Shown one piece after another: positions 10,378-27,465 of a stretch of 34,558 nucleotides of DNA. The DNA is from Candidatus Dadabacteria bacterium (GTDB lineage: Bacteria; Desulfobacterota_D; UBA1144; Nemesobacterales; UBA2774). The position numbers and the translations under genes were made by a program. The stretch is from positions 1-34,558 of the forward strand of contig JAHKKQ010000010.1 of assembly GCA_020027805.1 (NCBI GenBank), written 5' to 3'. Below the pieces are notes generated by a model. That model saw only the letters and a program-made list of their open reading frames with translations. It was not told where the DNA came from and made no database searches. Within the stretch, counting starts at the first letter, position 1. Every line of letters starts with the position of its first letter.

Positions 10378-10412
10378 CATAATTCTGTAATGTCGTGAAA
10401 GAAAACTCCGCC

Positions 10413-10573
10413 CTTCGACCCTTCGACAAGCTTCCGTCTTCGCTATCCTCCTATGCTAAAGCTTCGGAGGATAAAAGGCTACGCCGGACAATCAGGGTGA
10501 ACGGGTCTGGCTTCGTTGCTGGTTTGAGCGGAAGAGATTCGGAAGAATCGTAGAGTCACACTACGTGCGTGTT
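10413..10573 (+). repeat. Composite intergenic repeat, copy A (contains 64-bp hairpin module 10429..10492)
   Basis: ccttcgac x2, AGCTTCCGTCTTCGCTATCCTCC...GGAGGATAAAAGGCTACGCCGGACAA, CAGGGTGAACGGG, tail gagcggaagagattcggaagaatcgtagagtcacactacgtgcgtg. Confidence 0.8.
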
Positions 10574-22825: not shown

Positions 22826-23740
22826 ATGGTCCCGAGACAGAGAAAGCTCTACAACTTTAACGCCCCGGACGGTTTCCTTATAAACGCCGTGCTTGTTTCG
22901 GGTGAATTCAAAAATACAAAAGAACTCTATAACTCGCCCATAGTGCTCATCGTACACGGGGTGCTCGGGCATTTCCTGGCGAGGGGGACGCCGAGGCTCC
23001 TGCCGAACGCGCTCGTCGAGCGGGGCATAAGCTCGCTCTCGATCAACACGAGGCTCGCGTTCACGGGGCAGATATTCGGGGGAGGCATTTTCGACGACTC
23101 CGTGCTCGACATAGACGCGGCCGTCGAAGCCCTCGCGGAGGAAGGCTTCAAAAAAATCCACGTCCTCGGCTGGAGCCTCGGGGCGAACATCGCCGTATAT
23201 TACGCCGTCCGCGGCGCCCACAAGAACGTAAAGGGCATCATACTGGAAGGGTGCTCTTCGTCCCTCCCGCTCTCGCACAAGCGGCGGCTCGACAAGTGGG
23301 CCAGCATCCCGTCTTACGAGCACATATACGAGATCGCGAAGAAGGTGCTCAAGCCCGACCCGTCCGAGACTAAGAACGACAGGATATTCGTCGTGTACAG
23401 GGCGTGGGGGCCTTCGTTCGATCCGTCCGACTGCGAGATGTTCTCTTACAGGACGTGGTGGTACATGAGGAGCCCGGAGGCGCAGAACGCGAAGACGAAC
23501 GAGATAATCGCGGGCGTTAAGGTCCCCGTGCTCTTCATACACGGGGAGCATGACGACGTCGTCGCTGCCGACGAGGTCAATGAACTACTTGGCATACTGA
23601 AGAAGGCGGGGAACAGGAAGGCCGAGCTCAGGTTCATTCCCGGAGCGAAGCACGACTGCATGGAGAACCCGTCCTTCACTGTAGATACGGTCGTCGAATG
23701 GATCAATAGATCGGCCAGCGGGCGGAAGAAGAAGGATTGA
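22826..23740 (+). CDS. Alpha/beta hydrolase (tandem paralogue 2)
   Basis: VLIVHGVLGHFLARG, nucleophile elbow LGWSLGAN, VLFIHGEHDDVVAADE, PGAKHDCMENP; ATG start. Confidence 0.88.
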   Translation: MVPRQRKLYNFNAPDGFLINAVLVSGEFKNTKELYNSPIVLIVHGVLGHFLARGTPRLLPNALVERGISSLSINTRLAFTGQIFGGGIFDDSVLDIDAAVEALAEEGFKKIHVLGWSLGANIAVYYAVRGAHKNVKGIILEGCSSSLPLSHKRRLDKWASIPSYEHIYEIAKKVLKPDPSETKNDRIFVVYRAWGPSFDPSDCEMFSYRTWWYMRSPEAQNAKTNEIIAGVKVPVLFIHGEHDDVVAADEVNELLGILKKAGNRKAELRFIPGAKHDCMENPSFTVDTVVEWINRSASGRKKKD

Positions 23741-23763: not shown

Positions 23764-24045
23764 CATCGCGAGTAGCGACTTGTCCGGTGTAGCCTTTTAT
23801 CCTCCGAAGCTTTTGCATAGGAGGAATGCGAAGCCGGAAGCTACGTGGCGATCTCATCTTTTTCGTCATCCTGAACCATGTCCCGGACCCGATCCGGGAT
23901 CTATTCAGGATCTCATCTTTTTTATCACCATGCCCGTCCTTCGACAGGCTCGGGACGAACGGAGTGGCGAGTCGCCACGGACATACGAGATGTTGGCAGG
24001 GCCGAGGAGGTTGGGAAGGATCGTATATGAGCGCACATCGTGAGC
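23764..24045. repeat. Mosaic of intergenic repeats (module copy D 23779..23842, CATCCTGAA element, composite tail)
   Basis: gtcatcgcgag-tagcga, reverse 64-bp module, gtcatcctgaacc..ccggacccgatccgg..ttcaggatctc (23865..23914), ccttcgacaggctcgggacgaacgg, gtggcgagtcgccac, gaggaggttgggaaggatcgtatatgagc. Confidence 0.8.
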
Positions 24046-25238
24046 AGGGATGCGACATTCTCATCGTAGGCGCGGGGATAACGGGGCTCGCCGTAGCGCG
24101 GGAGCTCGTCAGCCGCGGGGCGGGCGATATTCTCGTCATAGAGAAGGAGCAGGGGCTCGGGGCGCACGCGAGCGGGAGGAACAGCGGGGTGCTTCACGCG
24201 GGGATCTACTACTCCCCCGGCACGAACAGGGCAAGGTTCTGCGTCGAGGGGAACCGGCTCATGAAGGAGTATTGCCGGGAGAGGGGCCTCACGCTTAAAG
24301 AAACCGGCAAGGTAATCGTGCCGGACACAGATGAGAAAGAAGAAGCCCTCGACGAGCTCAGGCGGAGGGCCGATTCCTCGGGGGCGAGGTCATATCTCAT
24401 CGGCACGAAAGAGCTCCTCGACATAGAGCCGCACGCAGCGCCCAGAGCCAAGGCCCTCTATTCCCCGGACACGGCGGTCGTCGACCCCGTTCAAATCCTC
24501 GGTGAAATGAAAAGGGAGCTGGAAGAAGGGGGAAGGGTGAGGTTTCTTTTCGGCACCTCTTTCGTTTCGCTCGCGGGTACGGGTACGGCTGTGACGAGCG
24601 CGGGGAATATAAAGTTCGCGAAGCTCGTCAATGCCGCAGGCACTTTCGCCGACAGGGTTGCCGGGGCCTTCGGCATAGGCCGGAACTACAGGGTGCTCCC
24701 GTTCAAGGGTACTTATAAAAAACTGAAAAAGGAGAAATCCTATCTCGTCAGGGGGAACATATACCCCGTCCCCGACCTGAGAAACCCGTTCCTGGGCGTG
24801 CACTTCACGAGGAGCGTCCGGGACGACGTGTACATAGGCCCGACGGCGATCCCCGTGCTCGGCAGGGAGGAATACGGGTTCATGGACGACCTCTCTCTTG
24901 AGTCGCTTTCGATACTATTCCGGGACGGAGTCCTCTTCTTCGCGAACGAAGCCTTCAGGGGCGCCGCCCTTACGGAGATAAGGAAGTATTCCGCGCGGAA
25001 TCTCCTGAAAGAGGCGAGGGGGCTTCTTCCCGGGATCGGCATTGACGACATCGAGGACACGCCCAAGAGCGGCATACGCCCCCAGCTCGTCGACTGGGAT
25101 ACGAAAAAGCTCGTGACCGATTTCGTCGTGATAAAGGACGGCGACTCGATCCATATACTGAACGCCATATCCCCCGCATTCACCTGCTCCATGGCCTTCG
25201 CGGGGTATACGGTCGCTATGCTCCTGGGCCACACATAG
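24027..25238 (+). CDS. lhgO: L-2-hydroxyglutarate oxidase/dehydrogenase (FAD-dependent)
   Basis: CDILIVGAGITGLAVARELVSRGAGDILVIEKEQGLGAHASGRNSGVLHAGIYYSPGTNRARFCVEG; start at ATG 24027 (the track start at 23826 is inside repeats). Confidence 0.92.
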   Translation: MSAHREQGCDILIVGAGITGLAVARELVSRGAGDILVIEKEQGLGAHASGRNSGVLHAGIYYSPGTNRARFCVEGNRLMKEYCRERGLTLKETGKVIVPDTDEKEEALDELRRRADSSGARSYLIGTKELLDIEPHAAPRAKALYSPDTAVVDPVQILGEMKRELEEGGRVRFLFGTSFVSLAGTGTAVTSAGNIKFAKLVNAAGTFADRVAGAFGIGRNYRVLPFKGTYKKLKKEKSYLVRGNIYPVPDLRNPFLGVHFTRSVRDDVYIGPTAIPVLGREEYGFMDDLSLESLSILFRDGVLFFANEAFRGAALTEIRKYSARNLLKEARGLLPGIGIDDIEDTPKSGIRPQLVDWDTKKLVTDFVVIKDGDSIHILNAISPAFTCSMAFAGYTVAMLLGHT

Positions 25239-27261: not shown

Positions 27262-27465
27262 ATCCTTCGACCCTTCGACCCTTCGACAAGCTTCCGGCTT
27301 CGCTATCCTCCTATGCTAAAGCTTCGGAGGATAAAAGGCTACGCCGGACAAGCAGGGCGAACGGGGCGGCGAGTCGCCGGGGACATACGAAAATGCCGCA
27401 TTTGCCGGTTTAGGCTGAGGAGGTGCGGAAGGATCGTATACGAGCACACAATGTGTGCCGCAGGT
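27262..27465 (+). repeat. Composite intergenic repeat, copy B (contains 64-bp module 27289..27352)
   Basis: ccttcgac x3, aagcttccggcttcgctatcctcc...ggaggataaaaggctacgccggacaag, ggcgagtcgcc, gaggaggtgcggaaggatcgtatacgagcacacaatgtgtgc. Confidence 0.85.

Follow-up and report, generated by a model that had tools for sequence, protein, structure and literature searches.

A palindromic repeat has probably replaced the start of lhgO in a genus of Candidatus Dadabacteria

Introduction

The question raised by this locus is whether the start codon of lhgO, the gene for an L-2-hydroxyglutarate oxidase, belongs to the gene itself or to a dispersed repeat whose tail overlaps its 5' end. The stretch of DNA analysed here, called the window (34,558 nucleotides), corresponds to contig C85 in the G000 draft genome (2.35 Mb), and the nearest named relative by lhgO is RBC041 (Candidatus Dadabacteria), with 95% identity. 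The lhgO open reading frame scores above the curated equivalog cut-off of the NCBIfam model NF008726 (Table 1). The match to this model begins at residue 9, and the first 8 residues of LhgO therefore lie outside it. A preliminary description of the window proposed that an intergenic repeat had been exapted as the translation initiation region of the gene, providing both its ribosome-binding site and its start codon.

Results

The sequence at the 5' end of lhgO is as that description gave it. The ATG located in the repeat tail opens the 403-amino-acid reading frame, a Shine-Dalgarno-like motif precedes it by six bases (spacer, 24021-24026), and the remnant of the tail palindrome coincides with codons 2 to 6 or 7, so that the first LhgO residues counted from this ATG come from the repeat. 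The 47-nt tail includes GAGGAGGTtgGGAAGGATCGTATATGAGCgCACAtcGTGagC, and the stretch GAGGAGGTtgGGAAGGATCGTATATGAGC begins at position 24004. From the reading frame, the predicted N-terminus is (M)SAHREQGCDILIVGAG, and the frame upstream of the tail ATG would encode GGWEGSYMSAHR if it were read through. When the window was searched with a 24-nt tail pattern allowing 3 mismatches, only two matches were found, the lhgO tail and a copy at 27417, while 0 were expected from 100 shuffles. The second copy has an ACG (27440-27442) and so opens no frame there. The T-versus-C difference between the two copies had been regarded as what sets the lhgO copy apart, and this point had to be abandoned. Among 141 distinct copies from G000-G003 and the sister-genus genome G013, the codon at the position of the lhgO start is ATG in 73, ACG in 25 and another triplet in 43. 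The T is thus not specific to lhgO; a copy with ATG is the ordinary form of the family, and the ACG at 27440 is a variant. No match to Rfam was found in the window at gathering thresholds. The window also contains a second repeat family (CTTCGACAAGCTTCCG..TATCCTCCTATGCTAAAGCTTCGGAGGATAAAAGGCTACGCCGGACAA) at 10411-10505, 27271-27365 and, inverted, 23779-23842; its copies are 92-97% identical to one another and are joined in places to the tail-bearing repeat.

Table 1. Features of the lhgO region and of the second tail copy in the window (positions as numbered in the window)
Feature	Position	Strand	Remarks
Upstream hydrolase gene	22826..23740	+	Adjoins lhgO in 14/14 genomes; 286 nt from lhgO in G000
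Portion of the lhgO-tail repeat unit lying upstream of the tail (CCTTCGACAGGCTCGGGACGAACGG...GGCGAGTCGCC...)	23937..24000	+	Similar sequence also found at other places in the genome
Tail of the repeat (positions 1-47 of model R1), overlapping the start of lhgO	24001..24047	+	64.6 bits; 38/42 bases surrounding the ATG agree with the consensus
Shine-Dalgarno-like AAGGA, separated from the ATG by 6 nt	24016..24020	+	Predicted duplex with the G002 16S 3' end, -6.8 kcal/mol
Putative start codon ATG, in the repeat tail at codon -14 relative to GxGITG	24027..24029	+	Start at -14 in 3/3 genus members
lhgO, L-2-hydroxyglutarate oxidase, 403 aa	24027..25238	+	ORF; NF008726 314.2 bits, cut-off 299
Remnant of the tail palindrome, now lhgO codons 2-6/7	24031..24045	+	5/6 stem pairs kept
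Second tail copy, with ACG (27440-27442) and no gene starting there	27414..27460	+	

A covariance model of the tail was built from 17 copies, the G000 lhgO tail being one of them, and in G000 and its three congeners it identified 61, 64, 119 and 37 copies (E <= 0.1). Under stricter filters, applied to 44 genomes of the order, these numbers were 51, 56, 110 and 32; G013 had 23 copies, the other members of the family had 0-2 each, and none were found elsewhere in the order. The repeat family is therefore abundant in only one Ca. Dadabacteria genus and one sister genus, that of G013. The tail terminates in the palindrome GCACACATTGTGTGC, or its variant GCGCAGATTCTGCGC, and all six stem pairs are intact in 105 of 140 copies. 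Neighbouring tails (for instance at L189, L160, L108, L147 and L181) are often about 80-84 or 105-109 nt apart, a spacing that suggests a repeat unit about 81 nt long, with a longer version of about 107 nt. Among the papers searched, none contained the 21-nt core of the upstream part of the repeat, and those mentioning Dadabacteria together with repeats and palindromes dealt, according to their titles and abstracts, with sponge microbiomes or defence systems.

The lhgO gene is present in 14 of the 16 genomes of the family; the fourth member of the genus, G001, gave no lhgO match in an assembly that is 86% complete. The comparison included G000, G002 and G003, all of them fragmented drafts, and as outgroups 11 genomes from four other genera, and for each genome we tabulated every in-frame start codon preceding the GxGITG motif. 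Every outgroup gene has a start codon, ATG or GTG, precisely 10 codons before GxGxxG, which gives a protein beginning with M/V-E/Q-x-x-C. The three genes of the genus have CGT, AAA or TCT at that codon, none of them a start, and an ATG at codon -14, from which the N-termini would read MSAHREQGC, MSTHKAEGC and MSTHSAQSC. The 11 repeat-free orthologues thus start at -10, while the 3 repeat-bearing ones have lost that start and carry the ATG at -14, and this pattern of ancestral and derived starts supports the earlier proposal that the repeat was exapted at lhgO.

The similarity to the tail around the -14 ATG is well above what chance would give. Ungapped matches to the tail consensus amount to 38/42 in G000, 31/42 in G002 and 29/42 in G003, as compared to 10-15 of 42 at the outgroup 5' ends (n=11). 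In 20,000 shuffles with the ATG fixed none reached the values of the genus, and the outgroup values had p of 0.34-0.81. The covariance model matches the lhgO start with 64.6 bits in G000, a sequence used to build the model. The match in G002 scores 19.4 bits (E 3e-4), and that in G003, at 11.5 bits (E 0.08), is weak when taken alone. The distance from the hydrolase stop codon to the lhgO start, 16-44 nt in the 11 outgroups, is 286 nt in G000, 114 nt in G003 and 447 nt in G002, and the repeat extends well upstream of lhgO in both G000 and G002. None of the 11 outgroup orthologues has the repeat at lhgO, including that of the repeat-bearing G013. That the tail-like 5' end is ancestral to lhgO, with the dispersed repeats derived from it or alike by chance, is hardly credible: it would account for the 5' sequence common to the three orthologues of the genus, but not for its absence from the 11 outgroup genes, for a sister genus that has the repeat family and no copy at lhgO, or for a repeat that reaches so far upstream of the gene.

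A repeat located at the 5' end of a gene could also lie merely upstream of the true coding start, or be read through. In G000 no stop interrupts the frame over the 92 codons preceding GxGITG, which include a GTG at -35 and an ATG at -81, the latter preceded by AGGAGGA, and translation from either codon would extend the protein through the repeat. However, the frames of G003 and G002 are open for merely 18 and 17 codons, with in-frame stops beyond, which excludes any upstream start in two of the three species and makes the -35 and -81 codons unlikely starts in G000. In addition, the extension would be encoded by the repeat, and the outgroup proteins begin near the Cys codon. Initiation at one of the upstream codons is on these grounds very unlikely. 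The starts remaining in G002 and G003 are the ATG at -14 and a GTG at -1, and use of the latter would remove the first beta strand of the FAD fold. The tail ATG is, as judged by the reading frames, a sensible start in all three members of the genus.

The contribution of the repeat to ribosome binding is less uniform. With the 16S 3' end of G002 (GGATCACCTCCTTT), the predicted Shine-Dalgarno duplex at lhgO is -6.8 kcal/mol in G000, -5.6 kcal/mol in G002 and -2.2 kcal/mol in G003, and those of the outgroups range from -3.1 to -5.8 kcal/mol. The tail-derived motif would then be normal to good in G000, fair in G002 and weak in G003. On these predictions, the repeat would supply a clear ribosome-binding site of lhgO in G000 and a fair one in G002 but not in G003, and this contribution therefore does not appear to be conserved. 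What the repeat appears to contribute in all three species is the start codon and the first residues, rather than the Shine-Dalgarno motif.

The palindrome invites another explanation, in which the repeat at lhgO acts mainly as an RNA or DNA element, either a hairpin or a 3'-terminal element of the hydrolase transcript, whose sequence contains the shared ATG as a neutral by-product. Tails are palindromic and are usually found at gene 3' ends, and the lhgO tail does follow the hydrolase gene, albeit in the orientation opposite to the usual one. Nevertheless, the three lhgO copies retain just 5/6, 4/6 and 1/6 of the stem pairs, yet all of them still have the ATG, and two of the species have no alternative start available. 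We consider it highly improbable that the structure is the main function here, and a structural role of the upstream portion of the repeat could coexist with the role as a start. The predicted folding around the lhgO start of G000 (-16.6 kcal/mol) is as strong as that of the non-coding copies. The copies at lhgO in G003 (-7.1 kcal/mol) and G002 (-7.6 kcal/mol) fold less than any of 140 other copies, and loss of the hairpin was considered as a mark of selection; this argument was dropped because the G000 value is typical and the G002 and G003 copies have decayed throughout.

The genomic contexts of the copies come from the stretches around them, in which genes were called by a simple method based on codon usage. 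Among the 141 tail copies, the lhgO tail is the only one that overlaps a called gene, and the family is mainly intergenic. The 3' end of an opposite-strand gene lies within 100 nt downstream (<=100 nt) of 44 tail copies, and the start of a same-strand gene follows 10 copies. This bias suggests an insertion preference or a role at 3' ends. Most copies face the 3' ends of genes, and the repeat is therefore not a general start module: exaptation as an initiation region is supported for lhgO but not as a general route, and capture of a start codon is rare.

At one other locus (L147; G000:C170:13288-14205), a HAD-family gene has two tandem tails immediately ahead of its native ATG, and this arrangement occurs in G000 only. 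The ATG of the second tail is in frame, 9 codons before the native one (13423 versus 13450), and the orthologue in G001, whose protein is 94% identical, has no tail there. This gene is a possible younger parallel, or early stage, of a capture such as that at lhgO. As further captured genes, an mqnC-like gene (L172/L121), an ArsR-like gene (L198) and the HAD gene (L147), all named by eye from the sequence, were rejected; the tails are upstream, yet internal starts remain. The mqnC-like gene has a tail at the same position in G001 and G003, and the frame is not kept between the species. In G003 the frame from that tail ATG stops after 8 codons, so the ATG is not a start there. It is unlikely that the tail is a portable initiation module, bringing a Shine-Dalgarno-like stretch and an ATG in fixed register and repeatedly capturing genes, with lhgO as a completed case, the G000 HAD gene as an early one, and N-termini in the genus changing recurrently through initiation at repeat starts.

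Discussion

The comparison of the 5' ends makes it very probable that a copy of the repeat tail replaced the ancestral start of lhgO and that translation begins at the repeat ATG at 24027. A lineage-specific palindromic repeat would have inserted between the hydrolase gene and lhgO in the ancestor of the genus, at or inside the first few lhgO codons; the insertion is seen by comparing the genomes, and we infer the exact junction. The ancestral initiation region, with M/V-E/Q-x-x-C at 10 codons before GxGxxG, would have given way to the repeat, and translation would begin at an in-frame ATG that already existed in the tail, as the reading frames indicate. The new N-terminus would be 4 residues longer, its first residues, MS[A/T]H, being encoded by the repeat, and in G000 the tail would provide the AAGGA at 6-nt spacing as well. 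Then, the rest of the repeat would have decayed unequally in the three species, with the ATG and the frame retained. In G002 the palindrome ends only about 5 nt before the conserved Cys codon, whereas three codons lie between start and Cys in the outgroups, which suggests, from this one junction, that the element landed inside the first lhgO codons. G013 carries the repeat elsewhere in its genome and has a short, repeat-free lhgO start. The insertion is therefore placed most simply after the split from the genus of G013 but before G000, G003 and G002 diverged, a dating that rests on the taxonomic grouping. Ancestral and derived states, together with a possible intermediate at another gene (HAD), are visible in related genomes, and they illustrate in concrete terms how N-termini and expression signals may drift. 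Start sites annotated near repeats should be compared with those of relatives.

The tails resemble REP/RAYT-associated repeats in that they are short, intergenic, palindromic, often paired and mostly close to gene 3' ends. They differ in that the cognate PF01797 was undetected in four of the five repeat-rich genomes: in these draft assemblies, no such (RAYT) gene was found in G000, G001, G003 or G013, and one was found in G002. This sole PF01797 (Y1_Tnp) gene (L214:1276-1902, G002:C8) adjoins a tail copy. The tail L214:1280-1326 directly follows a stop codon ending at 1279. G002 also carries the most tail copies. A RAYT as the mobiliser of the family was not retained, since the support is limited to one neighbouring gene in G002.

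Fusions between repeats and genes in the same frame are already known. Rickettsia palindromic elements (RPE) are small palindromic repeats that occur inside protein genes, in frame with them (Ogata et al. 2000, via PMC2229807 and PMC10969869), and as described in the passages of those reviews devoted to them, they resemble the lhgO repeat in being palindromic and in frame with a protein gene. By the same descriptions, RPEs are inserts translated within genes, whereas the repeat at lhgO takes the place of the initiation site and contributes only about 6 codons. The term "start codon" is absent from the main texts of both reviews, and their passages on such fusions mention no conserved enzyme whose start a repeat has replaced. 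A reading frame of the repeat fused to other coding sequence has been reported for the enterobacterial MITEs ERIC and YAPL/RU-2, and the signal peptide of Yersinia YPO1552 is partly MITE-derived (PMC2229807). The likeness to lhgO is the fusion of a repeat-encoded frame to coding sequence. In the part of that review concerned with these elements, the examples stressed are new or putative genes, although some conserved genes are mentioned too, whereas lhgO encodes an old metabolic enzyme. In comparison with these cases, what is replaced at lhgO is apparently the known ancestral start of a conserved enzyme, by an event that can be placed on the species tree.
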